Shown here piece after piece: positions 129 through 24,570 of a DNA stretch of 64,000 nt. The notes beneath the pieces are model-generated. The model was not told the DNA's origin. It worked only from the letters and a program-made list of their open reading frames with translations, and did not search any database. Source of the stretch: Acidimicrobiaceae bacterium (GTDB lineage Bacteria; Actinomycetota; Acidimicrobiia; Acidimicrobiales; Aldehydirespiratoraceae); assembly GCA_009835735.1 (NCBI GenBank), contig VXWX01000010.1, positions 21,824 through 85,823 of the forward strand, written 5' to 3'. Each line of letters opens with the position of its first letter. Position 1 is the first letter of the stretch. Position numbers and translations under genes: made by a program.

Positions 129-3100
129 GTCTGTGATGTGGCCTGTGCCCGAGTTGTTGTGGGGTTGGGCGCCTTCGATGTGCACGAGTTCGAGCACCAT
201 CTTCTCGGTGCCTTCTTGTTTGTTGTCGGTGCGGGTGGGGATGCGTATGGTTGTTTGGGTCTGGCCGGGCTCGATCTCGATGAGGTCGTTGGTGAATGTG
301 TAGTCTGTGGTGTCGGCGGTCCAGTCGGCTGTGACGTAGTAGACGGTGACGGTCTCGGTGGAGGGCCGGTTGAGGCTGACGGTGAATACGAGGTCGTCGC
401 CCTCGGCGGCGGCCGCGTCGGACACAGCCAGCGTCACGGGCTTGGTCGGGTCGGCGACGTCGTTGTCGGCGACGGCGACGACCGCGGCCGACGGTGTGCC
501 GATCTCGTAGTCGGAGTCCGACAGCGAGACGACGGTGGCGGTGATCGATCCGTCGGGTTCGTCTGTGATGTCGTCGGTGGTGGCGACGGTGACGGTGGCG
601 GTGCCGGTGCTGGTGATGGTGACGGTGCGGGCGCCGGTGGAGGTGGCGTAGGCGCCGTTCTGGGTGACGGAGACCTTGACTGTCATCGGCTGCAGCGGCG
701 CGGGTTTGGCGGTGAGGGTGAAGGTGGCGGCGCCGCCCTCGGTGACGCCGGGCCCCGCGGTGATGGTGACCGAGGGTGTCGGTGGGGGCGCGTCGTCGTT
801 GATGATGTCGACCTCCACCGAGGTGGCGCCGAGTGTCAACCCTCCGTCGATGCCGGATTCATAAGGCTGGAACCAGGGGCGTCTCATCGAGATGGCGACG
901 GTGATGGTGCGGTCCTCGTTGTCGGTGTTGGGCCGAGCATAAAGTTTGAGCTTCCCGGCGGTCGCGCCGGAGCTGAGGCGGACCTCGTACTTGAAGCCGG
1001 TCTCACTCTTGCTGAGGTGGATCTTGGCGCCGGGGTCGGTGAGGGTCACACCGCTCTGGCGGGGCACTTCGAGGTTCCAGTGGGTGTCGACCTCGCCGCC
1101 GGTCACTATCAGCGGCACGGTGACCGACTCGCCTGCCTCGAGGGCGCGGTTCAAAGTGAGCGTCACATCGGTGACCCCGTTGTTCTCGGCGATCGACGCC
1201 GCGGCCGCGGAGACGCCGAGCACCACTCCGACGGTGTCGGCGTCGTCGTTGTCGGCGACGGCCACCGTGGCGGTCGCCGACGGGCCGACGATGTAGCCCG
1301 AGCCGGGCTTCAAGGTGAGGGTGACCGTCCCGTCTGCCTCGTCGACGTCGTCGTTGATGGTGCCAATGCCCACCTTGGTAAAGAGGGGGCCCTTGAAGGG
1401 GTCGGAGCCCTCGAAGCCGACCATGTCGCCGGTCTCGCTCCAAACGTAGTTCAGCGCAAGTGGGTAGTCCGGGACCGGGGTGGCGGTGATGGTGAAGTAG
1501 GCGTATCGGCCCTCGGTGATGTCGCCTGCGGAGGCGACGTTGATCACCGGAGTCCCCTCCGGCGGCGGGTCGTCGTTGTCGGCGACGGCCACGGTGGCCG
1601 ACGCCGCGGCGCCGACGGTGTAGCCGTCGCCGGCGTCGACGGTGAGCGTGACCGTGCCGTGGGGCTCGTCGATCCTGTCGTCGATGGTGTCGCCTCTCAC
1701 AACCGTGGTCGCCGCGCTCACTCTCACGGTGAGGGATTTGGAGTCGTCGTAGTATGTGAAGTCCCCGGTCTCGGTGAAGGTGACGCTCACCGTCACAGGC
1801 ACGTTCGGCGCGGGTGCGGCGGTGAGCGTGAAGCTGGTCCTGTCGCCCTCGGTGACGTCGCCGCCGGCGGTGACGGTTATCTCCGGGACCACCGCGTCGT
1901 TGTCGGCGACTTCGACGGTGGCCGACGCGGCGGCGCCGACGCTGTAGCCGCTGCCGGTGTCGACCGTCGCGGTGATCGAGCCGTCGGGTTCGTGGGTGCT
2001 GTCGTCTGTGGTGGCCACCGTGAACGTCACGCTGCCGGTGGTGGGCACCGTCACGGTGCGCGATCCGGTGGCGGTGGTGTAGCTGCCGCTCTGGGTGATG
2101 GCCACGGTGACCGACTTGGGGGCTGAGGGCTTCGGTGCGGCGGTGAGCGTGAAGCTGGCGGCCGTGCCCTCGGTGACGCCGGCTCCGGCGGTGATGGTGA
2201 CCTCGGGGTTGGCCGGGGTCGGGTCGTTGTTGGTCACGTCGATGGTGAACGTGCCCGCGCCGAGCTCTATCCCGCCGGGCACCCCCACCGCGGACGGGGC
2301 CCGAGCGCCGGTGCCGAAAGCCACCGTGATGGGCCGGTCCGCGGTGGCGGGCTCGGCGCGTCCGATGAAGGTCAAAGTGGCCACCCGGCCGCCCGAGCTG
2401 AACCGCACCGCCGAGTTGGACCCCCAGGCGGTGCGGACCACCCCCGCGCCGTTGTCGGCGCTGCGGAACTCTATGTTCCAGTGCGTGTGCGGGTCGCCCC
2501 CCGACACCGTGAACGGCACCGTCACCTGCTCGCCCGCCCCCAGCGCGCGGCTGAGAGTGATCGTGAAGGTGGTCTCGCCGTCGTCCTCAGACACCGACGC
2601 CGCCGCCGACGCCAGCGTGACCGTCACCGGCACCGGCGGATCGTCATCGTCGGCAACAGCCACCGTCGCCGACCCAGGATCGCCGACGGTGTAGCCGTCG
2701 CCGGTGTTGACCGTCGCGGTGACCGACCCGTCAGCCTCGTCCACATCGTCGTCTGTAGTGGCCACCGTGAACGTCACGCTGCCGGTGGTGGGCACCGTCA
2801 CCGTGCGCGACCCGGCGCCGGCAGTGTAGTCGCCGCTCTGGGCGACCGTCACCGTCACCGCCAGCGCCGCCTCAGGCGCAGGCGCGGCCGTCACCGTGAA
2901 CGACGCCGCGGCGCCCTCAGTGACATCGGCGCCCGCAGATATCGTGACCTCCGGGGTCGGGGGCGGGACGTCGTCGTCGGCGACCGCCACCGTGGCCGAC
3001 GACGCGTCGCCGACGGTGTAGCCGTCGCCCGCGGCGACCGTCGCGGTGACCGACCCGTCAGCCTCGTCCACCTCGTCGTCTGTAGTGGCCACGGTGAACG

Positions 3101-4290
3101 TCACGCTGCCGGTGGCGGGCACCGTCACCGTGCGCGAACCGGCGCCGGCAGTGTATTCGCCGCTCTGGGCGACCGTCACCGTCACCGCCAGCGCCGCCTC
3201 AGGCGCAGGCGCGGCCGTCACCGTGAACGACGCCGCCGTGCCCTCAGTGACATCGGCTCCCGCAGCTATCGTGACGTCGGGATTCGCCGGCGTCGCAGCG
3301 TCGTCGTCGGCCACCCCCACAGTCGCCGACGAAGGATCACCGACGATGTAGTCGCCGACCCTGTGGCCGCCCACGGTGTAGCCCCCGCCCGGCTTCACCG
3401 TCGCGGTGACCGACCCGTCAGCCTCGTTGACGCCGTCATCGACAGTCGCGACATGCACAGTAGCCGACCCAGAATCGTCGATGACCACGATACGAGTGTC
3501 CACCGACGCGAAATCGCCGCTCTGAGTCACCGCCACCTCCACCGCCCGCGCGCCCCACGACGGCGGCGGTGTGGCGTCACCGTGAACGACGCCGTGCCGC
3601 CCTCAGTCACGTCACCGCCCGCCACGACAGTGACCCTGGGCCTGGCCGGGGGATCATTGTCGCGGACCCCGAAAGACACCGTCGACCGCGCGCCGATCGT
3701 GTAACCGCTGTCAGCGACGAGAGTGGCGGAGATGACACCATCAGGCTCGTCGATGCGGTCGTCGTCGGTGTACACGCAGAGCCTGCCGACATCGTCGCCG
3801 ACACGATGGACCCGCACGGTGTGGTGGGTCACTTTCGTCCCCTTGGTGAAGCCCCCGCTAGGCCTGCTTGTGGTGTCCTCGACGTCGATGGCCTGGATGT
3901 AATCGCCGGTCTGGGTGACGGTGATATGCACCACCAGCCGAGACTCCCGCGTCGGCGGAGCCTCGGACGGCCCCACGATCAACCTGAAGCACCCAAAACC
4001 GCCCTCGACACCCGTGCGACCAGGAGTAATCAGAGTGAATTGCACCTCCGGCACATCAGGCAGAACCTCCTGCGCGCCCCCGGCGACGCCGGCCCCACCA
4101 GCACCAACCCCACAACAGCCGCCGCAACCACAACACACCACACCGCCCCAACCAAACCACGCCCACCACGGCGCCCGGTCCTGCGCCGGGCGTCGGCAGC
4201 CCAGCCAGGGGCTTCGAAGCTCATCGACCCTCGCATCGCCATGTCCCAACACCTCCAAAACACCGGGCACGCACGTCCGAGGGCCCGATC
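123..4290 (-). pseudogene. Large secreted Calx-beta-like repeat surface protein, split into three frames by two 1-nt frameshifts (pseudogene, phase-variable gene or sequencing error)
   Basis: ORF 123..3542(-) has many repeats of VTEGTAASFTVTAAP...VTFTVATTDDxxDEADGSVTATV...GYTVG..ATVAVADND; ORF 3527..4270(-) carries the preceding repeat in another frame; the signal-peptide-like RRTGRRGGRGLVGAVWCVVVAAAVVGLVLVGPASPGA lies in a third frame (ORF 4030..4410). Breaks near 3575 and in the C5 run 4077-4081. Confidence 0.8.
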
Positions 4291-7832: not shown

Positions 7833-8975
7833 TTAGAGCCCGATGCCGCCGCCGTAGCGGGTGTCTCGTCGCGGCCAGCGCGAGGTGTGGTAGTCGGGCG
7901 GGTATATGGCGTAGGGGTCGTCGTGTTCGATGTCGTCGCGGTCGAAGGGATGGATGTCGAGGTCGTCGTCTCGGTGGTCGTGGATGTCTCGGTCGTCGTC
8001 TCGGTGATCGCGGTCGTCTCGGTTGTGGGTGTGGTGTTGGTGGTGGGTGGTGCTGGCTTGTCTGAGGGCGGCTATGGCGTTTTGGATTTGGTGGGTGTAG
8101 GCGCCGGTGGTGTCTGATGCCCATCGGTTCATGTCGGCGTTCATCAACTCGATGCAGAAGCCGTACCGCTCCGGCAGTGCGGTGAGCATGTCTGAGATGA
8201 GTTGTTGTTTGTCGTGGCGGGTGGTGGGGACATCGAATTGCAGTTCGTTGGGGTTGAGGTCGCCGATGTCGGGGCCGTCGATGAGGCCTTCGAGCTCCAC
8301 TGGGGCAGGTGAGGCGGTGGAGGGCCCCTTGGTGGGGTTGTGGAAGTCCTGGTGGCTCTTGATCACATACATCTCACACACCGCCGCGGGGTCTTCGATG
8401 ACGGGCCGCAGACTGGTGAGGTCATAGAGGTCGCGCACGGTTGGGCGGCGCTGCCAGCGGGCGAGTTTCTCTGAGGCAACCTCGTCGGGGGTCATCACCG
8501 GCACCGCACAGGTGACATCGCTGCGGTAGTGGTCATGTATCGGCCGGGGCAGCAGCCTGGCCGTCACGGGCTGCTGTATCGGAACGCTTGGCGCGAAGTC
8601 GCAGGCAACGCTGAGCGGCTCGGCTATGAACGGAACGTCGATACGGACGCGGCTGTGGCGCCCCAGCGCCAGCGTGCTGTTGAGGCCGCGGCCGCGGTCG
8701 CGGATTGACATGATCCGGGTCAGTCTGTCGCGGTCGGGGGCTGCGGTGAGCGCGAAGTCCAGGTCATAGGAGATGCGCCGGTAGCGCTGCGGGTCGCAGT
8801 GGAACTTGCGCACCGCGGTGCCGCCCTTGAACACGAGACCGCCACGGGCGAAGGCGTCGTTTTCGGCCAGCGCCATCAGATACAGGTCCAACGCGGCGTC
8901 ACGGGCGACATCGCCCAGCCGCTGGGCGCTCAACCGCGGATGCAGACCCGCGATCACCCGGGGCGTCAACCCCAT
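7833..8975 (-). CDS. AbiEii-like nucleotidyltransferase toxin with a His/Asp-rich C-terminal tail
   Basis: GGLVFKGGTAVRKF...RISYDLDFAL is the AbiEii/AbiGii nucleotidyltransferase core; MTPDEVASEKLARWQRRPTVRDLYDL also typical; follows the AbiEi-like gene with a 29-bp gap. Confidence 0.85.
   Translation of the reverse strand: MGLTPRVIAGLHPRLSAQRLGDVARDAALDLYLMALAENDAFARGGLVFKGGTAVRKFHCDPQRYRRISYDLDFALTAAPDRDRLTRIMSIRDRGRGLNSTLALGRHSRVRIDVPFIAEPLSVACDFAPSVPIQQPVTARLLPRPIHDHYRSDVTCAVPVMTPDEVASEKLARWQRRPTVRDLYDLTSLRPVIEDPAAVCEMYVIKSHQDFHNPTKGPSTASPAPVELEGLIDGPDIGDLNPNELQFDVPTTRHDKQQLISDMLTALPERYGFCIELMNADMNRWASDTTGAYTHQIQNAIAALRQASTTHHQHHTHNRDDRDHRDDDRDIHDHRDDDLDIHPFDRDDIEHDDPYAIYPPDYHTSRWPRRDTRYGGGIGL
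7952..8011. repeat. 30-bp in-frame tandem repeat, 2 copies, encoding the DHRDDD-type tail of the AbiEii-like protein
   Basis: ggatgtcgaggtcgtcgtctcggtggtcgt / ggatgtctcggtcgtcgtctcggtgatcgc. Confidence 0.8.
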
Positions 8976-9004
8976 CGCTACAACCCCCCGCTACAGCGCC
9001 ATCG

Positions 9005-9898
9005 CTACAACGACGACGAGGCCGCGCTGGAGGGCTCCCCATCCCAGCACACGAAATGGCTGCCGGGGGGCTCCCAGTAGCGCTCGAAGATGTAGTCGAC
9101 CACATCGAAATCCCCGTAGGTGCGCCCGCCCCAGCGGCGGCGGGGGACACCGAACTTGTACGGGCCGCGAGCACCCCCAGGCGCCAACGCCGACAACTCG
9201 GCCGCAGCCTCAGGCTGTTCGCCGCGCCACATGATGAACGCCGCCTTCATCCACACCGACCGCGTCCGCCCCCCCAACTCGCACACCAACTCCTCGACCG
9301 CAGCGGCGCCGCACACCGCGTCAAGCCACTCGCCGACATCTTCGAAACCGAACCTCGAAGGCCGAGCCGCCATAAAGGCCACCAACGTCGCCGGCGACCA
9401 CACCGGCAGACCCTCCACGCTCCCCAACGGCGCCCGCGCCTGCCAGCGCAACAGATTGAACCCACCCAAACACCGCGGCACCAACACCCCAGCCGGCATC
9501 GCGATCGTCGGCTCCGTCGGCCTCTTGAGCCAGCCGCACACCTCCAACACAGAACGCCCCGCAACCACCGCCGGCGTCCGCGGATGAGTACGCAACCGCC
9601 CCAACAACTCATCAAAAGCCGCCGTCACATGAAACTCCCACACACCACAACGCCACACCCCCCGAGCACGCATCGGAACCAACCAGCCACCCTCACGCAA
9701 CACCCGCACCGCACGACGAGCCGCAACCTCACCGCCGCACCACACCGCCAAATCCCCCACAGTCACAACCCTCAAACCACTCGCCGCCATCGCCTCCACC
9801 ACCGACCCCAACCCCACAGGCACTTCACGCAGACCCACATCAGACCGACCCCCAGCACCCACCGGCACCCCAGCCACAGCCGCCTCAACCACCACCAC
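9005..9898 (-). CDS. AbiEi-like antitoxin/transcriptional regulator
   Basis: Winged-helix N-terminus (VTVGDLAVWCGGEVAARRAVRVLREGGWLVPMRARGVWRCG) plus typical AbiEi middle region, directly upstream of AbiEii on the same strand. Confidence 0.75.
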   Translation of the reverse strand: MVVVEAAVAGVPVGAGGRSDVGLREVPVGLGSVVEAMAASGLRVVTVGDLAVWCGGEVAARRAVRVLREGGWLVPMRARGVWRCGVWEFHVTAAFDELLGRLRTHPRTPAVVAGRSVLEVCGWLKRPTEPTIAMPAGVLVPRCLGGFNLLRWQARAPLGSVEGLPVWSPATLVAFMAARPSRFGFEDVGEWLDAVCGAAAVEELVCELGGRTRSVWMKAAFIMWRGEQPEAAAELSALAPGGARGPYKFGVPRRRWGGRTYGDFDVVDYIFERYWEPPGSHFVCWDGEPSSAASSSL

Positions 9899-10011
9899 AC
9901 CTCCTGTCGTTCCAACACCATTCTAGACGCAAACGCCGTCGCCGGGCAAGCCACCCGCCAGCCCAACCAACCCCCAGATCAAAAACACCGACATACACCG
10001 TCACCGCAACC

Positions 10012-10041
10012 GCGTTCCTCAGCGTTCGCATGCGTTCCTCG
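10012..10041 (+). repeat. Decamer repeat array A (3 GCGTTC units, 10-bp period)
   Basis: gcgttcctca gcgttcgcat gcgttcctcg; starts 10012, 10022, 10032. Confidence 0.75.
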
Positions 10042-10056
10042 GACCCCGGAGGCGTC

Positions 10057-10110
10057 GTTCGATACTCGAACACCCGGGCTGTTCAAACCGTCGAACGGCC
10101 TAGGTGTTCG
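10057..10110. promoter_or_regulatory. GTTCGA/TCGAAC operator-like inverted repeats upstream of abiEi-like gene
   Basis: GTTCGA-TAC-TCGAAC at 10057-10071, GTTCAAACCGTCGAAC at 10081-10096, half site GTTCGA at 10105-10110. Confidence 0.45.
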
Positions 10111-10491
10111 ATGGCGGCACTGCAAGTGCAAACGTGTGGTGACCAAACGACCCCACGAACGCACGCTGACGCCCCACACCCGGTCAACGACCCAGCCGCA
10201 ACAGACACCGACACCAGCATCCCGGCCCGGCATTGGACCAAGAACCGCACTCCCAACAACGAACGCAGCCTCAGCAATCCACCAGCACCCCTCGCAGAGC
10301 ACATGCCCGCCGCGCCAGGTGACCGCGGGCCGGGCCGAGCGTCTGCGGCGGGCTACAGCACCAGTGTTCTTGTCGGGCGGCTCGGTGCTTGAAGTGGCCG
10401 ATGCGACAGGGCTTCTTTGCGGCTTGCCAGTCTGTTCGGCTGTTACAACTCCGCCGCCGCTGTTCCCAGCTGGGACCCGGCCGGCCAACTC

Positions 10492-11067
10492 CTATGTCTC
10501 TTCGAGCGGATCGTCGCAAATGCGCTCGAACTCCGTGTGAGCATGGCGGACGCCGGAGACCTCCGGCAGCAGCGATGCGAAGTTCCCCCAGTTCAGGACG
10601 TGGCAGTTGTCGTAGACATCGGTCTGCTCTTCCTTGATGCCGGAGATGCCCTGTTGGTTCCAGTGGGGGGTGTGTGCACAGATCAGCAGCTTCTCGGCCT
10701 TGTCGATGGACGTTCCCCACAGCTCGTTATCGATGCCGCCCCGGTCCTGGTCATCTTGCGTCGGGTGAACGCGTCCCGTGAAGAACCGCAGCAGCGCGGT
10801 GTTGTCTTCCCACACACCGTCATCGGAGTCGGGGTTCCACCACCGGTGATCGCGGTTCGTGAACCTCGCGGCGAAGGTCTGATCGTTTGCCTTGCCGATG
10901 TAGAGCAGCGACTCGGTCCCGCTGGCTGGATGCGGGCCGTAGACCTGATAGATCCCGAAGTCCGTGCCGCCATCCATCTCCAAGACATCACCGAAGGTGT
11001 GCGGACCGCTCCATAGAAGGTGAATGCGGGTCGGTTCGCGGCGCTCGGTGTCGGGGTCTACTGTCAT
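10492..11067 (-). CDS. Stand-alone GIY-YIG-like nuclease domain protein
   Basis: FGIYQVYGPHPASGTESLLYIGKANDQTFAARF matches the GIY...YIG core arrangement. Confidence 0.65.
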   Translation of the reverse strand: MTVDPDTERREPTRIHLLWSGPHTFGDVLEMDGGTDFGIYQVYGPHPASGTESLLYIGKANDQTFAARFTNRDHRWWNPDSDDGVWEDNTALLRFFTGRVHPTQDDQDRGGIDNELWGTSIDKAEKLLICAHTPHWNQQGISGIKEEQTDVYDNCHVLNWGNFASLLPEVSGVRHAHTEFERICDDPLEET

Positions 11068-11168
11068 CGACTAACGGGTGGTTTGCGCTCGGGCGCAGTC
11101 CTCACCAGCCTCGATCATCGGTCTCAGCTTATGCCTGCGCCGGGTAGACCTACGCGTGGCCGTGATGG

Positions 11169-11193
11169 GCCCTGTCGAGCCGTTCGACAGGGC
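11169..11193. promoter_or_regulatory. Perfect 10-bp-arm hairpin in the divergent intergenic region before the ParA-like gene
   Basis: gccctgtcga-gccgt-tcgacagggc. Confidence 0.8.
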
Positions 11194-11208
11194 CGTCAGC
11201 GGCGTGGT

Positions 11209-11248
11209 GCGTTCGTTGGAGTGCCTGCGCGTTCGTGGGCGTTCCGGG
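11209..11248 (+). repeat. Decamer repeat array B (GCGTTC at 11209, 11229, 11239)
   Basis: gcgttcgttggagtgcctgcgcgttcgtgggcgttccggg. Confidence 0.75.
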
Positions 11249-11270
11249 GGCCTTCGTAGCTTGCGGGGCC

Positions 11271-12245
11271 ATGGCGACCAGATCGAACGGCCCGGTTCCC
11301 ACTGTGGTGGTGTACGGCGCTTCTGGCGGCGTGGGCACCACCACCGTGGCTGCGGCGATGGCCATGTTGACCCAGGCCAGCCACGACGGGGGCCACACCG
11401 TCCTGGTCGACTTCGACTCACGCGCCTTCGACGTGCTGGGCGAGCCGCCCTACAGCGACATCTCCGAGCCGGGGGCCACCCATCACGTCGGCGTTCATCT
11501 TGGCCTTGATGTGGTGTGCTGGCCCGGCGCCAGCTTCGATCCGATGGCTTTGCCCGGAGTGCTGGCCGCGGACCCGCAACCGGCCGGCGTGAACGCCGTA
11601 ATCGTCGACGCCGCCACGGCCAGCCCGGCTGCCATGGGGGCACTGGGCCGCCACCAGCCTGCTGCGAGGACGGTGCTCGTCACGGCGAGCACCTACCCGG
11701 CGGCGTCGGCGGCGCGGGACCACGTGGCCGCCAGCGGCGCGCACCCTGACGAGATCGTCGTGGTGGATGACTCCTCCAGGGCCTTCGGTGTGGCCCACTT
11801 CGCTACCTGGTGGCCGGCGGGCACCCAGCTGCGGGTGCTGCGACGCGACCCGGCGGTGGCCGAGGTCATCGACGCCGGGCTGTTCGGGCTCGCCTCCAGG
11901 CCCGGGGAGCGGATCTTCCCCCACGCTTTGGCGGAGCTCCAGGCCTCGGCTGTGTTGTGCGACAGCACCGATCGGCGGCGTCTGTGGGCGGCGCTGCACG
12001 CCTCGCGCCCCGACAGCCCCGCCGCGGTCCACCAGATGCGCGAGTGGACCCGACAGATCGACGGCGACCTCCCTTCGGCCACCGCTGCGGTGTCGTCCAA
12101 CGGCAGTTCGTTGCGCGCTGGCTGCGCGGTTTGTGGCGTCGAGGGCGCCGGCCACGACCCCGGCTGCCCGGCCCGAACGGCTGTGCCGGGCCGTCGTGCC
12201 CTCAGCGCCGTGGGTGACAGCCGCAACGGGCTGAGCATCGTCTGA
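11271..12245 (+). CDS. ParA/MinD-like P-loop ATPase with a C-terminal zinc-knuckle-like tail
   Basis: Walker A VVVYGASGGVGTTTVAAAMAM; tail CAVCGVEGAGHDPGC. Confidence 0.7.
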   Translation: MATRSNGPVPTVVVYGASGGVGTTTVAAAMAMLTQASHDGGHTVLVDFDSRAFDVLGEPPYSDISEPGATHHVGVHLGLDVVCWPGASFDPMALPGVLAADPQPAGVNAVIVDAATASPAAMGALGRHQPAARTVLVTASTYPAASAARDHVAASGAHPDEIVVVDDSSRAFGVAHFATWWPAGTQLRVLRRDPAVAEVIDAGLFGLASRPGERIFPHALAELQASAVLCDSTDRRRLWAALHASRPDSPAAVHQMREWTRQIDGDLPSATAAVSSNGSSLRAGCAVCGVEGAGHDPGCPARTAVPGRRALSAVGDSRNGLSIV

Positions 12246-12318
12246 CGGGCCGCACAGGGGCTGCTGAAGGCCTCTTCGTGGTCTGCGACCTCGCTGCGGA
12301 CGGGCTCGTCTGCTGGCT

Positions 12319-12369
12319 GCGTTCGTGAGCGTTCATGAGCGTTCCTGGTGCGTTCGTGGGCGTTCGGGG
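12319..12369 (+). repeat. Decamer repeat array C (5 GCGTTC units, 10-11-bp period)
   Basis: gcgttcgtga gcgttcatga gcgttcctggt gcgttcgtgg gcgttcgggg; starts 12319, 12329, 12339, 12350, 12360. Confidence 0.85.
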
Positions 12370-12423
12370 TGCTGGTGCACGGTGAGGGTCGATACCGCAG
12401 CCCAGCGGAGAGGAGCACCCCTG

Positions 12424-12846
12424 ATGGGCACCAACGGAAGCCGAGGCCACCTCCACAACGGCTCTGGGACCGCCGACTGGGCGGTCTGCGACACTGAGGA
12501 GCTGGAGGGGTCGGTGCTCGTGCAGGACCCGGCGGGGCCGGAGCTCCCGCCGTCGGTGATCGCCCCTGAGGGCTGGATGGCGGCCTGGGCGAACCGGTTC
12601 GACCCGGCTGCGCCCGACGCCGGCGAGGACCTGGCGGTGGCTTGGGACCCTGAGCGGGTGGCGCAGGTGGCGATGACGCTTGAGCCTGTCACCGCCGCTG
12701 AGGAGACGGCGCTGGCCGAGACGGGCTGGCAGCGGCTGCGAGTGGACAGCCATGAGGTGTGGGCGAGGACCCCCGAGGCGGCCCAGCTAGAGATCGAGTC
12801 CCGGCGGCGGCACCCGTCGTCGCGGTCGATGGGGATCGGGCTGTGA
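12424..12846 (+). CDS. Hypothetical island protein ending in SRSMGIGL
   Basis: Open frame MGTNGSRGHLHNG...SSRSMGIGL, preceded by repeat array C; no family recognised. Confidence 0.6.
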   Translation: MGTNGSRGHLHNGSGTADWAVCDTEELEGSVLVQDPAGPELPPSVIAPEGWMAAWANRFDPAAPDAGEDLAVAWDPERVAQVAMTLEPVTAAEETALAETGWQRLRVDSHEVWARTPEAAQLEIESRRRHPSSRSMGIGL

Positions 12847-12922
12847 GCGCCGCGGCGATCATCGTCGCCGGCGTGGAACTGGCCGGCCCCGATGATGGCC
12901 CCCAGCGGGCCCGCTGCTGCCG

Positions 12923-13324
12923 GTGACTGGCCCCCAGCACCGCCACCGCAGCACCGCGGTGGTGCCGGTCAGCATCGAGGGTCTCGGCGACGAGGTGGTC
13001 ACCGTCACCCCTGCGACCGCTCTGCGCTGGTACGGCTCCCAGGAGCGCGGCCAGCGCCACGGAGCGGTACAGGGCTTCGACATCACCGACTGCGCCGCCC
13101 AGCTGGCGGCCGCATCGATGCTGGGCCGGCGCAGCATCTGGTACCGCCGGATTGACGCTTGGTGCTTCGAGGTAGGCCCGCTGTCTCGTGGGCGGCGCCT
13201 CGCCGGCTATGTGGGCGTTGTGGGCGAACCCCCCGAGGCGTGCCTCGGGGTGCAGGAGTGCGCCGACGCGGTCACCGAGCGCCTAGAGGCAGCCCGCCGC
13301 AGCACCGGCCGCGCCGGCCGCTAG
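12923..13324 (+). CDS. Hypothetical protein
   Basis: 133-aa ORF following the previous gene; no family recognised. Confidence 0.5.
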   Translation: MTGPQHRHRSTAVVPVSIEGLGDEVVTVTPATALRWYGSQERGQRHGAVQGFDITDCAAQLAAASMLGRRSIWYRRIDAWCFEVGPLSRGRRLAGYVGVVGEPPEACLGVQECADAVTERLEAARRSTGRAGR

Positions 13325-13351
13325 AGCCGGCTCTGGCGCCGGGGGCATCGG

Positions 13352-13918
13352 TCACATGTCAGTGGTGAGGTCTAGGTTGTGAGACGACGGAGGGGACCCG
13401 CCAGCGGCCAGCTGATCGAAGCGAGCCACGGTGGCTCCGTCGGGGACCTCGACGCGTTCGGTGCCGCCGGTGCCGGCCCGCGACGCCACCGCGTAGCGTT
13501 GCAGGTAGGAAATCACCGCCTCTGTGGAGGCGTCGAAGGCGGCCTCGATCTGTTTGCGGGTGTCGTCATCGGAGACCGCCCACGCCACCGAGACGCTCTT
13601 GGGCACGCTGTAGGTCATGTCATAGGCCGACATGGCCTTGCGCCGGCGTCTCACCCCCAACGCGTCGGTGTAGCGGCCGGCGGGGTTGTATCTCCGGCCG
13701 AGTTGCTCGCCGGTGCCGGGATCCAAACAGGCCAGCACAGCCCGCAGCGCCGCCGAGGTGACGAGGGAGCCCTCGGTGACGTTCATCGCCCCGCGGGAGG
13801 CCCATCGGCCCGGTTTCTCGCCGGAGTCGGTGTAGTAGCCCTCGCGGCCAGACGCCCGGCCGGTGTAGTAGTCGGCGTGAGCGACCCCGATCTTCCCGAT
13901 GGACAAGACCACGGCCAC
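13352..13918 (-). pseudogene. Truncated MobF (TrwC/TraA-type) relaxase N-terminus
   Basis: VLSIGKIGVAHADYYTGRASGREGYYTDSGEKPGRWASRGA...AYDMTYSVPKSVSVAWAVSDD is the TrwC relaxase N-terminus; stops at 188 aa before any HxHxH or helicase region. Confidence 0.75.
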
Positions 13919-13938
13919 AGACAGTGCCCCAAGGCCGC

Positions 13939-14023
13939 GAACGCTCAGGAACGCACCAGCGCGAACGCTCAGGAACTCTCACGAACGCACCCAAGACGAC
14001 ACTCAGCAACGCTGGGGAACGCA
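13939..14023 (-). repeat. Decamer repeat array D (inverted orientation: GAACGC on +)
   Basis: gaacgc at 13939, 13949, 13963, 13983, 14018 with degenerate units at 13973 (gaactc) and 14008 (caacgc). Confidence 0.75.
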
Positions 14024-14582: not shown

Positions 14583-15551
14583 GTGCGCTGCTCGGAGTGC
14601 GATGAGGGCATTGGGCTCGCAGGGCCGTTCTCGGCGCCCCCACGCACCCGGATCCTGAGACTGGCCGCGGTCGGTCTTGCCCGGGTGATCGACGGCGCGG
14701 CCTGGGTCGGCTCACGCCTTCCTGGCTGGCTGGCCCACGCGCTGGCCGAGATCGCAGGCAACATCCAGTGGGCGCTGAGACCCAACAGGCGCAGGCAGTT
14801 GGCGTTCAACCTGTGCCATGCGGTGTCGCAGCCGCCCGACGATCGCGAGGTCGGTCGGCTGGTGCGCGAGGTAATGGTCAACGAGTCCCATGCCGCCGCC
14901 GACCTGCTGTGGGCCATCGGCCGGCCCCAGGAGTTCCTCGACACCGTCGTCTACAAGGACTGGCACCACGTGCAGGAGGCGGTCAACCAGGGCCGAGGCC
15001 TGATACTAGCCGGAACCCACCTCGGAGGATGGGAGGTGGCCACCGCGATCCCCGGCGCCAGGGTGCCGGTGCCGACCAATGTGATCGTGGCCGACAACTG
15101 GATCGCGTGGGCCATCGAGCACGTGAGGGCCTCGGTCGGGTTGAGGATCATGTATCGCCAGGTCGCGGCGTTGCGCAGCGTGAGGCGGCTTCAGGCCGGC
15201 GAGGCGGTGCTGCTGCTGGGCGACAACAGCGAGCTTGCCGGGCACACCCACCGGGTTCGCTTCTTGGACAGCGAGGTCCAGATGGCCGCAGGAGTAGCCG
15301 CGCTGGCCCGGCTGGCAGGCTCCCCGATCATCTCGTTCACGGTGCTGCCGCTGGGCCCGCGCCGCTGGCAGGCCGCGATGGACGCCCCCATCGACCCTCC
15401 ACGGGCTGAGTCGGGCAGACAGGGCGAACAGGCCGTTCTGCAGCAACTGGCGGACCGCTGGTCCCAAGCGATCACAACCAACCCGGGACACTGGGCGATG
15501 GCCACCCCACTCCATTGGCTCGACAGCTCCCTGGACACGTCGCGGGAATGA
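14583..15551 (+). CDS. LpxL/HtrB-like lysophospholipid (or PIM) acyltransferase
   Basis: GRGLILAGTHLGGWEVA...VLLLGDNSELAGHTHRVRFLDSEVQMAAGVAALARLAGSPIISF, LPLAT family pattern. Confidence 0.8.
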   Translation: MRCSECDEGIGLAGPFSAPPRTRILRLAAVGLARVIDGAAWVGSRLPGWLAHALAEIAGNIQWALRPNRRRQLAFNLCHAVSQPPDDREVGRLVREVMVNESHAAADLLWAIGRPQEFLDTVVYKDWHHVQEAVNQGRGLILAGTHLGGWEVATAIPGARVPVPTNVIVADNWIAWAIEHVRASVGLRIMYRQVAALRSVRRLQAGEAVLLLGDNSELAGHTHRVRFLDSEVQMAAGVAALARLAGSPIISFTVLPLGPRRWQAAMDAPIDPPRAESGRQGEQAVLQQLADRWSQAITTNPGHWAMATPLHWLDSSLDTSRE

Positions 15552-15675
15552 GCCCGGCTCGAGTCGCCATCGGTCCCGTGCGTTGGGCGGCTACCACAAC
15601 GTGCGTCGACAGAGGTCCTCCTCGGTGTCCTCGCCGATGGAGGCGCTTCTGACGTGTGTAGTGGGTCGAACTCTC

Positions 15676-15681
15676 TATAAT
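15676..15681 (+). promoter_or_regulatory. Candidate -10 element (TATAAT) upstream of hpnH
   Basis: tctcTATAATgtcgcg about 47 nt upstream of the HpnH ATG; no convincing -35. Confidence 0.3.
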
Positions 15682-15727
15682 GTCGCGCGCGCAAGACTAG
15701 GTGATCGAAGGAACGGACTCGGCGCGT

Positions 15728-16750
15728 ATGGGGCTTCCCGCAGCACAGGCGTGGACGGTGGCGTCGTATGTGCTCAAACAGCGGTTGAGGGGCCGGGAGC
15801 GCTACCCGCTGGTGCTGATGCTCGAGCCGGTGCTGCGCTGCAACCTGGCCTGCGCCGGGTGCGGCAAGATCCAGTACCCGCCCCATGTGCTGAGACGGGC
15901 CCTCACCGTCGAGCAGTGCCTGGCCGCGGTCGAGGAGTGCGGGGCGCCGGTGGTGAGCATCCCCGGCGGTGAGCCGCTGCTGTACCCCCACATCGGCGAG
16001 TTGGTGCACGAGCTGACGAGCCGCAACAAGTACGTCTATTTGTGCACCAACGCGATCCGCCTGAAGCAGAAGCTCGAGGAGGGCGTGTTCGAGCCCTCCA
16101 AGCGGCTCAGCTTCAGCGTCCACATGGACGGCCTGCGGGCCGAGCACGACCTGTCGGTGTGCCGCGACGGTGTGTACGACATCGCGGTGGACGCCATCGG
16201 TGAGGCGCTGCGGCGCGGCTTCCGGGTGACCACCAACACCACGCTGTTCAACACGGCCGAGCCCATGCGGGTGCGCGACTTCTTCGACGCCATGATGGAT
16301 CTCGGAGTGGAGGGCATGATGGTGTCGCCCGGCTACAGCTACGACGCCGCCCCCGACCAGGACTCGTTCCTGGAGCGTGAGAAGACGGTCGAGCTGTTCT
16401 CGGCCATCATGGAGGGCAAGCCCAAGCGCTGGCGGTTCAACCAGTCGCCGCTGTTCCTGCAGTTCCTGATGGGCAAGCGGGATTACGAGTGCACACCGTG
16501 GGGCAACCCGCTGTACACGATCTTCGGGTGGCAGCGGCCCTGCTACCTGCTCCAGGACGGCTACGCCGCGACGTTCTCCGAGCTCATGGACGACACCCAG
16601 TGGGAGCAGTACGGGCGCAGCAGCGGCAACCCCAGCTGCCAGGACTGCATGGTGCACTGCGGCTACGAGCCCTCGGCCGTGCACGCCACCTTCAGCTCCT
16701 GGCGGGGACTGCGCGACAGCGCGGTCGCAACCGTAACCGGCCGGCTCTAG
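15728..16750 (+). CDS. hpnH: Hopanoid biosynthesis radical SAM protein HpnH (adenosyl hopene synthase)
   Basis: LVLMLEPVLRCNLACAGCGKIQYP (CxxxCxxC) and SIPGGEPLLYPHIGELV; hopanoid gene neighbourhood. Confidence 0.93.
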   Translation: MGLPAAQAWTVASYVLKQRLRGRERYPLVLMLEPVLRCNLACAGCGKIQYPPHVLRRALTVEQCLAAVEECGAPVVSIPGGEPLLYPHIGELVHELTSRNKYVYLCTNAIRLKQKLEEGVFEPSKRLSFSVHMDGLRAEHDLSVCRDGVYDIAVDAIGEALRRGFRVTTNTTLFNTAEPMRVRDFFDAMMDLGVEGMMVSPGYSYDAAPDQDSFLEREKTVELFSAIMEGKPKRWRFNQSPLFLQFLMGKRDYECTPWGNPLYTIFGWQRPCYLLQDGYAATFSELMDDTQWEQYGRSSGNPSCQDCMVHCGYEPSAVHATFSSWRGLRDSAVATVTGRL

Positions 16751-16755
16751 AGGCC

Positions 16756-17091
16756 ATGAGCGCGTCCGACGGCGGCGCCGGCGACGGCGGCGACGAGATC
16801 GCGGCTCTGGTGGAGCGGGCGTTCCACTACCGCGGCGACGTCACCGTGCGCACCGCGGCTGGCGTCGAGGTCGTCGGGTACCTGTTCAACCGCAACGACC
16901 GGGGGGAGGATCGGTGCGCGCAGCTCTTCGAGACCGGGACCGGCCGCGAGGTAGCCATCGCCTACCGCGACATCCGCGACGTGCTGTTCACCGGGCGTGA
17001 CACCGCCGCGCCCAGACAGGACACCGGTGCGCCCGGACCGGTAGGCGGCAGCGACCCCGAGGCACCGGGGCGGACGGCCACGACGCCTTGA
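16756..17091 (+). CDS. Hypothetical small protein in the hopanoid operon
   Basis: MSASDGGAGDGGDEIAALVERAFHYRGDVTVRTAAGVEVVGYLFNRN...; starts 5 nt after the hpnH stop; its stop overlaps the hpnG start. Confidence 0.7.
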   Translation: MSASDGGAGDGGDEIAALVERAFHYRGDVTVRTAAGVEVVGYLFNRNDRGEDRCAQLFETGTGREVAIAYRDIRDVLFTGRDTAAPRQDTGAPGPVGGSDPEAPGRTATTP

Positions 17092-17906
17092 CCACCCACC
17101 GGTCGGCTCGCGGTGGCGTGCTGGTGGTCGCACCGACGCGCCGGGAACTCGGCGGCCTCTCCCGCCGCGGCGGAAGGCTCGCTGCAGCGGGCCGGCCCGG
17201 CCGCGGACGCCGGCCGGCTAACGTTGGGCGGGTCGCCGTGGTAGGGATCGGGCGTGCTGCGGGACCGCGCACCGCAGCCATGCTCGACGCCGAGCCGAAG
17301 GCGGTGCTGGTTTCGCTCGGGTTCGCCGGCGGGCTAGACCCCGCCCTGAGGCCAGGTGACCTCGTTGTCGCTGGCACGTACCGCCACGGCGACGGTGAGA
17401 CCGTCGGCGACGCTAATCTTGCTGCCCGCGTCTCGATCCTGCTGGTGTGCCTCGGAATCGCCGCGCCCGCCGGAGTGGTGCTCACCACCGACGAGCCGCT
17501 GCTCACGCCCGACTCCAAGCAGCGGGCTCGCGCCGGCGGCGACCACCTGGTGGTGGACATGGAGGGCTACTGGATCGCCGGCGCCGCCCAGGCCCGGGGC
17601 GTGCCCCATATCGGGCTGCACTGCGTAGTCGACGAGGCTGATGTCGCTCTCCCCGACTTCGTGTCCAGAGTGGCCACGGCTCCTCATAGAAGAGAGTGGA
17701 TCCACGCCCTCGGCGCGCTGAGATCGGTGGGCGCCGCCCGAGATCTCTCCATCCTGGCACGAAGGGCTCGAACCGCAGGTTGGGCTTTACAAGAAGCCGC
17801 CTGGGCTGTCCTTGAGGCCGTCGCCGACGGAGCCCTCCCCGGTGGCGCACACGTCGCGCCCGAGAGCCCGTCCACTTCAACTATGCCTCCGTCCGGGGGC
17901 CGGTGA
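17088..17906 (+). CDS. hpnG: HpnG-like adenosylhopane nucleosidase/phosphorylase
   Basis: MTP-nucleosidase-like sequence (AVLVSLGFAGGLDPALRPGDLVVAG, VVDMEGYWIAGAAQARGVPHIGLHCVVDEAD) between hpnH and hpnA; TTG start. Confidence 0.8.
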   Translation: MTTHRSARGGVLVVAPTRRELGGLSRRGGRLAAAGRPGRGRRPANVGRVAVVGIGRAAGPRTAAMLDAEPKAVLVSLGFAGGLDPALRPGDLVVAGTYRHGDGETVGDANLAARVSILLVCLGIAAPAGVVLTTDEPLLTPDSKQRARAGGDHLVVDMEGYWIAGAAQARGVPHIGLHCVVDEADVALPDFVSRVATAPHRREWIHALGALRSVGAARDLSILARRARTAGWALQEAAWAVLEAVADGALPGGAHVAPESPSTSTMPPSGGR

Positions 17907-18949
17907 TGGCCCGGCTGTTGGTGACCGGCGGCTCGGGGTTCATCGGGGGCCATGTGGTGACCGCGGCGCTGCGCCGGGGCCACCACGTCGTCGCCCTGAC
18001 CCGGGACGGGGCCTCGCCCGGGCCGGCCCATCCGCGGCTGGTCGTCGTATCGGGAGACGTGCGCGACCCCGAAACGGTGCGGCACGCCGCGGAGGGCTGC
18101 GACGCCGTGCTGCATGTGGCCGGGCTCTACACCTTCGACCCGGCCCGAGCCGCAGAGATGCTCGAAGTCAACGCGCAGGGAACCCGCAACGTCATGGAGT
18201 GCGCCCTCGCGGCCGGCGTGGCGCGCATCGTTTACACGGGCACGGTGGGAACGACCGACTTCTCGGTCCGAAACACCGGTCGCCTCCCCAACGAGGACGA
18301 CGTGGCCGGACCCGGCGCCGAGATGGGGCCCTACAAGCGCTCCAAACTCGAGGCCGAGCGCATCGTGGCCGAGATGGCGGCTCAGGGTGCTCCCATCGTC
18401 ACCGTCTGCCCGACCGCGCCGGTGGGGCCCGGCGACCACAAGCCGACGCCGACGGGACGCATCGTCGTCGACTTCATGCGCGGCCGGATGTTCGCCTACG
18501 TCGAGACCGGGCTGAACTTCGTGCACGTCAGCGACGTCGCCGAGGGCCACCTGCTGGCGCTGGAACGGGGACGCGACGGTGCCCGCTACCTGCTGGGCAG
18601 CCGCGACGGCAACCTCACGCTGGCGCAGGCCTTCGGCATCCTGTCCGGGATCACCGGCCGGCGGGCGCCCCGGGTGCGGGTGCCCTGCGCGGTGGCAGTG
18701 GGATTCGCCCACGCCACCGCAGTCGTCTGCCGGGCGTTGCGCCGGCCCCCGCTGGTCGGCCCCGAAGCGGCCCGGATGGCCTCGACGCCGATGTGGGTGG
18801 ACCCGTCGCGCAGTGTCGCCGAGCTGGGCCTCCCCCAGACGCCGGTCGCCGAGGCGTTCCGGGAAGCCGTCGACTGGTTCGCCTACCACGGCTACGCCAA
18901 CGCCCCCCGAAGCGCAGTCGCCGCCGGCTCAACGGCCGGGCGGACCTAG
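17906..18949 (+). CDS. hpnA: HpnA hopanoid-associated sugar epimerase (extended SDR)
   Basis: LLVTGGSGFIGGHVVTAALRRGHHVVALTR...ALAAGVARIVYTGTVGT...GPYKRSKLEAE. Confidence 0.85.
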   Translation: MARLLVTGGSGFIGGHVVTAALRRGHHVVALTRDGASPGPAHPRLVVVSGDVRDPETVRHAAEGCDAVLHVAGLYTFDPARAAEMLEVNAQGTRNVMECALAAGVARIVYTGTVGTTDFSVRNTGRLPNEDDVAGPGAEMGPYKRSKLEAERIVAEMAAQGAPIVTVCPTAPVGPGDHKPTPTGRIVVDFMRGRMFAYVETGLNFVHVSDVAEGHLLALERGRDGARYLLGSRDGNLTLAQAFGILSGITGRRAPRVRVPCAVAVGFAHATAVVCRALRRPPLVGPEAARMASTPMWVDPSRSVAELGLPQTPVAEAFREAVDWFAYHGYANAPRSAVAAGSTAGRT

Positions 18950-18956
18950 CACCGCC

Positions 18957-21122
18957 ATGATGGACAACCATCAGGCTCACCAGAGCGTCCGCGAGGCGGT
19001 GGAGCGCACCCAGCAGTACTTCCTGCGCACCCAGCGCGATGACGGCTGCTGGTGGGGGGAGCTCGAGTCCAACCCCACCATCGAGGCCGAGTACATCATG
19101 CTCACCCGCTTCCTCGGATCCGACGAGGGCGACCGGACCGGACGGGTGGCCGCCGACATCCGCCGCCGCCAGCAGCCCGACGGCTCCTGGCGCATGTACT
19201 TCGGCGCGCCCGGAGACCTCAGCACCACCATCGAGTGCTACTTCGCCCTCAAGCTGGCCGGCGACCCGCCCGACGCGCCCCACATGGCCCAGGCCCGGGC
19301 CTTCATCATCGAGAACGGCGGCATCCCCAAATCCCGGGTGTTCACCAAGATCTGGCTGGCCCTGTTCGGTCAATGGGACTGGAGGGCGACCCCGTCCATG
19401 CCCCCCGAGATCATGCTGCTGCCGAAGTGGGCGCCCTTCAACATCTACCGGTTCTCCAGCTGGGCCCGGGCCACCATCGTGCCGATGACCATCGTGTTGA
19501 CCCTCAAACCGACCCGCCCGCCGCCCGCCGGCGCCGGGATCGAGGAGCTGCGCCGCGACGGCCCCGAAGCGCTGGCCGTGTCGCGTTTCAAGCCCAACCC
19601 GCTGTCGGTGCAGGGCGGGTTCCTGCTCATGGACCGCGCCCTGCGCCTGTGGCGGGGGCTGCGCCTGGTCCCCGGCCGCAGGCGGGCGCTGCGGGCCGCG
19701 GTCGACTGGATCGTCTCGCACCAGGAGGGCGACGGCTCGTGGGGCGGCATCCAGCCGCCGTGGGTGTACTCGCTGATCGCGTTGAGCGCCCTCGGACACC
19801 CGCTCGACCATCCCGTGCTGGCCAAGGGGCTCCAGGGCTTCCGCAACGAGTGGAGCCTGCCGTCGCCCGACGGCGCCGCGCTGAGGGTCCAGGCCTGCCT
19901 GTCGCCCGCATGGGACACCGCGCTGGCCATGCGCGGGCTGATGGACTCCGGAGTGTCCCCCGACCACCCCGCCATCCAGCGGGCCGCCGAATGGCTGGTG
20001 GGCAAGGAGGTGCGCTACGCGGGCGACTGGGCGGTCAAGAGGCCCCACCTCGAGCCCAGCGGCTGGGCCTTCGGGTTCGACAACGTCAACTACCCCGACA
20101 TCGACGACTCGTCAGTGATCGTCGCCAACCTCGCCCTCACCAACCTCGCCGACCGGGCCAGCGACTCGGCCAAGGAGGCCACCATCGACCGCGCCGTGGA
20201 CTGGCTCACCGGAATGCAGTCCTCCAACGGCGGTTGGGCCGCCTTCGACTACAACAACGACTCCCGCTCGGTCACCAAGATCCCGTTCGCCGACTTCGGA
20301 GAGGTGCTCGACCCGCCCAGCGCCGACATCACCGCCCACATGCTCGAGATGTACGGGATCCTCGGCTACTCACGGTGGCATCCAGCGGTGAGGCGGGGAC
20401 TCCACTACCTGTGGCAGCAACAGGAACCCGACGGCTCCTGGTTCGGGCGGTGGGGAGTGAACTACCTGTACGGGACCGGTGCCGTGCTCCCCGCGCTGGA
20501 GGCCCTCGGCGTCGACATGGCCCAGCCCGCGGTGCGCAAGGCCGTGCAGTGGCTCGTCGACACCCAGAACCCCGACGGCGGATGGGGCGAAACGTGCGAG
20601 AGCTATGTGGACCCCACCCTCAGCGGCCAAGGCGACAGCACCGCCTCCCAGACCGCCTGGGCCCTCATCGCGCTCATCGCCGCCGGCGAAGCGGCCGGCG
20701 AGCCCGTCACCAGAGGCATCGAGTTCCTGGTGGCCACCCAGCAGGCCGACGGCACCTGGGACGAGCCGCAGTTCACCGGCACCGGCTTCCCAGGCTACGG
20801 CCACGGCGACAGGCCCACCAAGAAGGGGGCTCCCGCCGACAGCCTCCAGGGCGCAGAGATGGGCGCCGCCTTCATGATCAACTACCACCTGTACCGGAAC
20901 TACTTCCCGCTGTGGGCCCTGGGCCGCTACCTCGCAGCAGTCGCACCGAGAGTCGCCCAAGCCGTACCCCTAGGGCGCACCGAGACCGAAACAGACAAGT
21001 CACCCAACGCCATACAAGAGGTGATTGACTTACCTACAGGACCTAGCCGCCGGGCACGGCGCCAGCGATCACCAATGGGAAGTCATCGCGCAGTTCACCG
21101 ACCTACAGCACCGCCCCCTTGA
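18957..21122 (+). CDS. shc: Squalene-hopene cyclase
   Basis: Catalytic DxDD (NYPDIDDSSV) and multiple QW repeats (QEPDGSWFGRWGVNYLYGTG; QNPDGGWGE). Confidence 0.95.
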   Translation: MMDNHQAHQSVREAVERTQQYFLRTQRDDGCWWGELESNPTIEAEYIMLTRFLGSDEGDRTGRVAADIRRRQQPDGSWRMYFGAPGDLSTTIECYFALKLAGDPPDAPHMAQARAFIIENGGIPKSRVFTKIWLALFGQWDWRATPSMPPEIMLLPKWAPFNIYRFSSWARATIVPMTIVLTLKPTRPPPAGAGIEELRRDGPEALAVSRFKPNPLSVQGGFLLMDRALRLWRGLRLVPGRRRALRAAVDWIVSHQEGDGSWGGIQPPWVYSLIALSALGHPLDHPVLAKGLQGFRNEWSLPSPDGAALRVQACLSPAWDTALAMRGLMDSGVSPDHPAIQRAAEWLVGKEVRYAGDWAVKRPHLEPSGWAFGFDNVNYPDIDDSSVIVANLALTNLADRASDSAKEATIDRAVDWLTGMQSSNGGWAAFDYNNDSRSVTKIPFADFGEVLDPPSADITAHMLEMYGILGYSRWHPAVRRGLHYLWQQQEPDGSWFGRWGVNYLYGTGAVLPALEALGVDMAQPAVRKAVQWLVDTQNPDGGWGETCESYVDPTLSGQGDSTASQTAWALIALIAAGEAAGEPVTRGIEFLVATQQADGTWDEPQFTGTGFPGYGHGDRPTKKGAPADSLQGAEMGAAFMINYHLYRNYFPLWALGRYLAAVAPRVAQAVPLGRTETETDKSPNAIQEVIDLPTGPSRRARRQRSPMGSHRAVHRPTAPPP

Positions 21123-23409: not shown

Positions 23410-24570
23410 CTATGCGATGTAGTCGTTCCATTGCTGCATCAGCGTGCGGCGGCGCTCGAGCATGTCAGAGCGAGCGTATGCGCCCTCGACGCCCGCAACG
23501 GCGTGGCCCAGTGCCATCTCGGCGAGGTCTCGGGGCACGCCGGCATCTGAGCACCACGAACGGAACGTGGCTCGCAGCCCGTGCGCTGAGCTTGGGATAT
23601 CGAGGTCGCGCAGCAGCTTCACGTAGGTGTTCTCTGACACCGCTCGCCCCGTCACCGGCGACGGGAACACCAGCGCGTCGACGGTGGTGCCGTTGCGGGC
23701 TTCGGTGAGCACCTCAACAGCTCGTTTGCTGAGTGGCACGCGGAACTGTGTGCTGGTCTTGTAGCGGGCTGCGGGGATGGTCCACACCGCGGTGTCGAGG
23801 TCGAACTCGTCCCAGGTGGCACAGCGGACCTCGCCGGGTCGGGTCGCGGTCAAAGCCAGCAGCTCAAGAGCCAGCTTGGTGGCTGCGGCTGCGGCTGATG
23901 CGCGGACCATTTGGAGCGCGTAGGGGAGGTCGCTGTGGTGCAGCGCCCGCTGGTGGTTGGTGCGGTGGCGCAGTTTGGGCATCGCGGCCACAGCCGCCGC
24001 GGTGGGGTCGCTCTCTCGTAGGCCGCGGCCCATCGCGTATTTCATGGTGGTGGAGATCCGTTGTGCGGTTCTGCGGGCGAGTTCGGGGCGGTCCCACACC
24101 CGGTCAAGCACCGCCACCACATCGGCTGCGGCCACCTCTGCGACTGGCATCGGCCCGATCGTGGCGTCGATGTGGTTCGCCAGCAGTGACCGCCACGACT
24201 GTTCGGTGTTGCTGGTGGGCTTCCAGTTGGTGCGGTGCAACTCGATCACCGACACCATCGCGTCTGAGAAGGTCACCGCGTGGCGTCGGCGCGGGTCGCG
24301 TCCCTCCTCCACGGCCTGGCGGTTGGCCAGCGCCCGCTCACGCGCCAGCGCCAACGACACCGCCGGATAGGCGCCCAGCCCGAGGCTCACGACCCGGCCC
24401 CCGATGCGGATGCGCTGGGCCCAGGTCTTTGACCAGCGGCCGTTCACGGTCGGCTTCACCAGTAGGCTCAGCCCATGTCCGCCTCTGCCGTCTCCGTAGC
24501 GACCGGCCCGGTTGATGGTGCGCACGAAGGCCGCGGTCAGCACCTTCGGACGGGAGGAACTCGAACTCAT
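23410..24570 (-). CDS. Tyrosine recombinase / phage-type (P4-like) integrase
   Basis: N-terminal DUF4102-like (GHGLSLLVKPTVNGRWSKTWAQRIRIGGRVVSLGLGAYPAVSLALARERA) and catalytic region (LTATRPGEVRCATWDEFD...HGLRATFRSWCSDAGVPRDLAEMALGHA). Confidence 0.95.
   Translation of the reverse strand: MSSSSSRPKVLTAAFVRTINRAGRYGDGRGGHGLSLLVKPTVNGRWSKTWAQRIRIGGRVVSLGLGAYPAVSLALARERALANRQAVEEGRDPRRRHAVTFSDAMVSVIELHRTNWKPTSNTEQSWRSLLANHIDATIGPMPVAEVAAADVVAVLDRVWDRPELARRTAQRISTTMKYAMGRGLRESDPTAAAVAAMPKLRHRTNHQRALHHSDLPYALQMVRASAAAAATKLALELLALTATRPGEVRCATWDEFDLDTAVWTIPAARYKTSTQFRVPLSKRAVEVLTEARNGTTVDALVFPSPVTGRAVSENTYVKLLRDLDIPSSAHGLRATFRSWCSDAGVPRDLAEMALGHAVAGVEGAYARSDMLERRRTLMQQWNDYIA

Follow-up and report, generated by a model that had tools for sequence, protein, structure and literature searches.

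GCGTTC repeat arrays and MOBF-type oriT-like elements as putative exchange points between defence modules in Acidimicrobiia

The 64,000-nucleotide stretch analysed here (the window; contig VXWX01000010.1, positions 21,824 to 85,823, of an Acidimicrobiaceae bacterium) contains four arrays of GCGTTC decamers. One of these arrays forms the left arm of a roughly 150-bp element that occurs in dispersed copies. Copies of this element share a near-invariant core of a hairpin followed by a putative nicking site (nic), they have exchanged their flanks at this core, and they lie among defence genes. The probable explanation is that the element is a site like the origin of transfer (oriT) of a MOBF relaxase, that the flank exchange at nic was made by such a relaxase, and that the sites serve the exchange of defence modules.

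The sequence-only reading had placed the first array, array A, upstream of an AbiEi-like gene. This assignment had to be given up: the same array recurs in many contexts, where the element adjoins unrelated genes and most copies have no neighbouring abiEi, which rules out an AbiEi operator. Rather than a promoter array, array A is one end of the dispersed element, since an opposing arm, palindromes and the core lie alongside it. The element spans 10012-10162, its opposing arm CACGAACGC is located at 10154-10162, and between the arms lie the palindromes and the conserved core, GGCACTGCAAGTGCAAACGTGTGG. Its parts, with the proposed nic marked by ^, are:

10012-10041, plus strand: three GCGTTC decamers (array A) that form the left arm of the oriT-like element
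10057-10071, no strand: palindrome GTTCGATACTCGAAC of the type I middle region, kept in type I copies and replaced by other middle sequence in type II
10081-10096, no strand: second, imperfect palindrome GTTCAAACCGTCGAAC, about two turns beyond the first
10117-10129, plus strand: hairpin GCACT-GCA-AGTGC, putative counterpart of IR2 beside a MOBF nic; proximal arm AGTGC in 27 of 27 copies
10130-10139, plus strand: AAACGTGT^GG, proposed nic between 10137 and 10138; GTGT and GG in 27 of 27 copies; the exchanges map here
10154-10162, minus strand: right arm, opposite array A and facing it, CACGAACGC (minus-strand reading GCGTTCGTG)

In type I copies the middle region consists of the GTTCGATnnTCGAAC palindromes, in type II copies of another palindromic sequence of about the same length. 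A search for the core, in which the genus scan tolerated two mismatches at any position, found it four times in this genome and 20 times in eight of the 16 same-genus genomes, and never in reversed controls. Together with weaker copies found by profile search and one copy that sits 5' of a ParA-like gene (G003 C14), this makes 28 copies of the element, which come from at least eight of the 16 same-genus genomes and from three further metagenome-assembled genomes (MAGs). The named records with copies are mostly Acidimicrobiia MAGs, many of them SB06xx bins, which we take to be sponge-associated. Outside the genus, the 15-bp core was found in one of 199 genomes drawn from the order (L077, from another family); this copy lacks the left arm, and its right flank resembles that of the Sva0996 copy. 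Where copies are neighbours on the same contig, all pairs (8/8) are divergent, with the nic sites facing outward. Terminal inverted repeats of a small transposon were considered for these pairs and ruled out, because the segments between them vary in size and content and exchange occurs at the core and not at the outer ends.

Fifteen positions, AGTGCAA[A/G]CGTGT^GG, are fixed in 27 copies apart from the one A/G column, while the loop and the distal hairpin arm vary and the hairpin potential is retained in most copies. Finding copies by a core pattern could bias this count. The bias is countered by the two-mismatch scan and by a hidden Markov model of the left arm that is blind to the core; with this model, every full-length arm was followed by a core matching at 14-15 of 15 positions. 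In TrwC, only the proximal arm of IR2 and nucleotides 17-25 are essential for specificity, and in most MOBF plasmids nucleotides 22-25 are GTGT and nucleotide 26 is a purine (PMC4176350). GTGT^G, present in 27 of 27 copies, corresponds to these positions. The invariance thus follows the TrwC specificity map, and by its pattern of constraint the core is a putative MOBF nic site, at which a relaxase is predicted to cut after GTGT (AGTGCAAACGTGTGG, GGCACTGCAAGTGCAAACGTGTGGCGGCC).

Among known systems, the oriT and TrwC nic site of plasmid R388 come closest. The order of hairpin, single-stranded stretch and nic is the same, the proximal arm and the stretch are conserved and the loop is free, GTGT^purine is used as in most MOBF plasmids, and a TrwC-family relaxase is present in related genomes. 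The nic-proximal arm of R388 has GTGC in common with the AGTGC arm here. Unlike R388, the elements have 8 instead of 9 nucleotides between inverted repeat and nic, many chromosomal copies per genome and arrays on both sides of nic, and their cleavage is a prediction. MOBF-type oriT-like sites with an R388-like repeat plan are, at the level of sequence, well supported. No oriT sequences for Acidimicrobiia were found described in the literature searched, and our analysis provides candidates for this class.

The decamers of array A recur in three further arrays, all of which were found where the sequence-only reading had located them:

11209-11248, plus strand: array B, ending 22 bp 5' of the ATG of a ParA-like gene and adjoining a TAGCTT -10-like box (11257-11262)
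12319-12369, plus strand: array C, five decamers 5' of gene 12424
13939-14022, minus strand: array D, directly 5' of a relaxase gene

Array A has three perfect units at steps of 10 and 10. Array B has three perfect units and, since a degenerate AGTGCC unit sits at 11219, a lattice of 10. The five perfect units of array C follow each other at steps of 10, 10, 11 and 10, and array D contains five perfect units and two degenerate ones (GCGTTGCTGA and GAGTTCCTGA) on the minus strand, at steps of 34, 20, 14 and 10. The window holds seven exact 10-bp GCGTTC pairs and two triples, above the expectation from 200 third-order Markov sequences (mean 0.01 pairs, maximum 1, no triples). The motif had been expected not to spread over the host, which the genome scan bears out: every GCGTTCnnnnGCGTTC pair of the 3.29-Mb genome, 16 in number, is located within or beside an element (C29, C123, C149), and the reversed pattern gave no pair. 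When all loci are pooled, 110 GCGTTC spacings fall in the range of 6 to 15 bp, and 85 of them equal 10 bp exactly; the decamer consensus is GCGTTC[G/C][T/C]G[A/G]. Orthologous elements have retained the arrays as well: array B stands before the ParA-like start at five further loci in the genus, the whole of array C is present in G014, and array D occurs in the three relaxase-bearing genomes.

The flanks of the copies, compared separately over 1.5 kb on the left and on the right, revealed eight exchanges, four with a shared left and four with a shared right flank. The right flank of the window copy is that of G014 C9 (98% over 1500 bp), and their left flanks are unrelated; the same G014 C9 site has its left flank, and not its right one, in common with G010 C34 (98.5%). 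The copy at C123:18255 shares its left flank with G010 C34 (99.7%) and its right flank with G010 C5 (98.4% over 378 bp). Only the right flank is common to G010 C39 and G002 C104 and to G006 C40 and G003 C8, and only the left flank to C149 and G010 C39. Identity between the exchanged copies falls at the core, and nic is bracketed in seven of the eight exchanges. On the unshared left side of right-shared pairs the nearest mismatches are at -23, -17, -16 and -15, and on the unshared right side of left-shared pairs at +3, +11 and +12; the interval common to the seven exchanges is about -14 to +3 around nic. TrwC recombines and integrates at oriTs reduced to 14+3 bp around nic (PMC3264647), which is about the same interval.

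Exchange of modules by a relaxase is our best current reading of these breakpoints. Either in cis or in trans, a MOBF relaxase would join the 5' side of one nic to the 3' side of a second one, as transfer is terminated or when two oriTs recombine, and the oriT-like sites would then act as exchange points for defence modules. The main rival is homologous recombination, in which the copies would be leftovers of several related integrated conjugative elements whose flanks were swapped between the repeats. Up to about 150 bp are common to copies, which is enough for RecA, relaxase genes are rare and that of the window is broken, and one exchange extends beyond the core. However, RecA crossovers would be expected across the arms as well, and in three of the four right-shared pairs identity is at background (0.45-0.49) just left of the core, at -60 to -24, with a mostly high right side. 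We therefore regard homologous recombination as unlikely, though as the alternative to be taken most seriously.

A relaxase gene lies downstream of array D, and in all three relaxase-bearing genomes (3/3; the window genome, G010 and G014) this array is directly 5' of it. In the window the gene is truncated:

13414-13918, minus strand: N-terminal fragment of a TrwC (MOBF) relaxase; both Tyr pairs present, ends before the HUH histidines
13379-13414, plus strand: start of a methylase-like gene, first 12 codons; 36 nucleotides identical to the G014 gene, then diverging

The open reading frame (ORF) at 13352-13918 matches TrwC in Pfam (1.1e-30). Mapped against the intact G010 gene, the relaxase gene breaks off at 13414, where it meets codon 12 of the methylase-like gene, and its HUH half is lost. 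The methylase-like gene of G014 encodes at least 1179 amino acids, with an Eco57I match below the Pfam cut-off. The intact G010 relaxase (1663 amino acids; L066:10346-15337) has relaxase, helicase and DnaG/Toprim primase domains and carries the TrwC tyrosine pairs (YY..YY) as well as the HUH histidines. TrwC relaxases were found in three of the 16 genus genomes, this one with its truncated copy included. Since the window relaxase lacks the HUH half and the genus genomes other than these three have no relaxase, the enzyme would have to act in trans in them.

Several observations weigh against a conjugative origin of the sites and their exchanges. These are the rarity of the relaxase and the position of the truncated window copy, about 3.3 kb from the oriT-like site, and the 8-nucleotide spacing. 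No type IV secretion genes were identified, with no systematic search made. A crude scan of the Iamia plasmid, which encodes the nearest plasmid relaxase (MOBF, about 35% identity), found no similar nic site above shuffled background. In the exchange between the window and G010 C4 the flanks beyond the element are alike and the element itself has diverged, so that it does not pinpoint the core. Finally, a recombination hot spot of IncA/C plasmids that was first taken for oriT proved to be res-like (PMC5587640).

The genes beside the copies include defence systems. On the right flanks we found Hma (HmaA, B, C), Wadjet (JetA and JetC, on the reverse strand), DISARM-like genes with Vsr, GmrSD, methylase systems and CRISPR I-G. 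AbiE-type pairs are often present on the left flanks, as in the window:

7833-9898, minus strand: AbiEii/AbiEi-like toxin-antitoxin pair in the left flank (AbiEii 2.1e-14; AbiEi_1 0.0069, below the cut-off)

As a raw count, five of the 12 Cas7g loci of the genus have an element copy at a distance of about 7 kb or less. To our knowledge, the gathering and swapping of unrelated systems in defence islands is largely unexplained beyond elements borne by integrases or transposases. We tentatively suggest a cassette-like, relaxase-driven exchange, in which sponge-associated Acidimicrobiia chromosomes would carry several MOBF nic sites each, half-sites would be joined, and whole anti-phage modules (CRISPR I-G, Hma, Wadjet, DISARM, GmrSD, AbiE) would be swapped between loci and strains, with the GCGTTC arrays as relaxosome and regulator platform; this wider scheme is possible and is held with less confidence than the oriT-like nature of the sites and their use for exchange. 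If it is true, precise exchange at relaxase nic sites would be a defined and testable route for the assembly of defence islands, and site-specific oriT recombination would shape chromosomes in nature. We know of oriT recombination so far mainly as a laboratory reaction of TrwC and as a suspicion in staphylococcal plasmids. The elements resemble hitchers that carry only an oriT (iOriT, staphylococcal oriT mimics) in carrying an oriT-like site and in a predicted dependence on a relaxase in trans, with relaxase recombination at oriT suspected (PMC11389934, PMC8136818), and differ from them in the many sites per chromosome among defence modules and the repeated flank exchange at nic.

It might also be possible that the element is a shared promoter or operator which places the defence operons under one regulator, which would activate or repress them from the arrays. 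Many operons of the right flanks lie on the core strand and point away from the element, and arrays B and C abut -10-like boxes. Wadjet and a 191-amino-acid gene on right flanks are however oriented in the opposite direction, the distance to the first gene ranges from about 0.3 to more than 1 kb, and a regulon predicts neither a conserved hairpin-nic core nor exchange at this core, which makes the promoter explanation improbable. Slightly less probable still are res-, dif- or att-like sites, at which a serine or tyrosine recombinase would shuffle defence cassettes with no tie to conjugation. The exchanges are precise, several copies have related P4-type integrase genes at a distance of 3-13 kb (window 23410-24570; L067:16543-17715; L071:4475-5686), and the IncA/C hot spot offers a precedent. 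Yet the integrases are not adjacent, the core has no inverted recombinase arms around a spacer, its invariance matches the TrwC map, and the arrays, common to both, connect the sites with the genes for the relaxase and the ParA-like protein.

For the arrays themselves an iteron or centromere system or an element-wide regulator had been proposed. The motif is indeed helically phased, restricted to the element and conserved at several of its loci; an ordinary ParA/ParB partition pair is doubtful because the Walker A lysines of the ParA-like protein are missing (GASGGVGTT). That no canonical ParB gene is visible agrees with our search, which recognised no ParB homologue among the window ORFs tested. 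The genes downstream of arrays B and C are:

11271-12245, plus strand: ParA-like protein, 324 amino acids; Walker A lysines replaced; CbiA/ParA matches below threshold
12424-12846, plus strand: gene 12424, 140-amino-acid protein, candidate array binder; AlphaFold2 mean predicted local distance difference test (pLDDT) 38
12923-13324, plus strand: gene 12923, 133-amino-acid protein, candidate array binder; AlphaFold2 mean pLDDT 39

The ParA-like protein is identical in G014 and present as truncated remnants elsewhere. Array B, spacer, -10-like box (TAGCTT/TAGTCT) and ATG are conserved together at the five further genus loci, where most of the genes are truncated, and in several copies this block is located right of nic, that is, in the leading region. 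A Pfam search of the 12424 and 12923 products gave no match, and no StbA homologue was recognised by it; few relatives exist, and the AlphaFold2 models, made from two-sequence alignments, are unusable.

In R388, the stbABC operon with the ParA-superfamily gene stbB lies next to oriT and enters first, and the stbDRs, 9-bp repeats with 2-nt spacing (every 11 bp), are located at the stb promoter and in lower number at other promoters (PMC3098194). Common to both are short direct repeats with a pitch of about one helical turn, located beside oriT (here the oriT-like site), at a leading-region promoter that precedes the gene of a ParA-superfamily ATPase with deviant Walker A in R388 and a ParA-like gene here, and in lower number at other promoters of the element. 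The arrays differ in their 10-bp pitch and sequence (GCGTTCSYGR versus the 9+2 bp TTGCATCAT), in that they also occur within the oriT-like site and in front of the relaxase gene, and in a ParA-like protein that lacks the Walker A lysines and is at most a relative. An iteron- or centromere-like role tied to partition and conjugation fits this precedent. By analogy to StbA on the stbDRs, one DNA-binding protein probably coats the decamers, in the oriT-like site as well as over the putative promoter regions of the ParA-like gene (B), gene 12424 (C) and the relaxase gene (D), and would couple relaxosome assembly, segregation and transcription. In NAH7, partition-type proteins (ParB at parS, and ParR) likewise bind repeats at conjugation promoters and oriT (PMC12421886); its sequences and proteins are proteobacterial, and the comparison does not rest on sequence. 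Replication-origin iterons or a classical ParB-bound centromere are the least probable explanation: direct repeats at helical pitch adjoin a ParA-like gene, and pB171-type centromeres are built of decamer repeats, but no Rep or ParB was recognised, the Walker A lysines are missing, and the arrays also occur at oriT-like sites and at the relaxase gene, in multiple chromosomal copies.

Some further observations concern the element and its surroundings. Neither the element nor the stretch from ParA-like gene to relaxase had a match in a plasmid database. Two IMG/VR matches to the core pattern (L060, L061) were taken as chance, as the rest of the element is absent and they apparently lie inside a phage gene. 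One copy stands on a contig labelled Chloroflexi and two on a contig labelled Gammaproteobacteria (L051/L056), which may reflect wide transfer or mis-binning. In G003 C8 (L072, about 9609-9659, minus strand) the left arm is tandemly duplicated. The 191-amino-acid gene (window 10492-11067) looks GIY-YIG-like by eye, has no Pfam match and recurs right of nic in G014 and G010 C5. Beside the AbiE pair, a large Calx-beta repeat protein is encoded at 123-3542, where long antisense ORFs look spurious. The region next to the window relaxase (14583-21122) contains hopanoid-type genes (acyltransferase, radical SAM, squalene-hopene cyclase-like; by eye except for the acyltransferase); the G010 relaxase gene also adjoins a hopanoid-type cluster, and the gene order is similar in G010 and G014.

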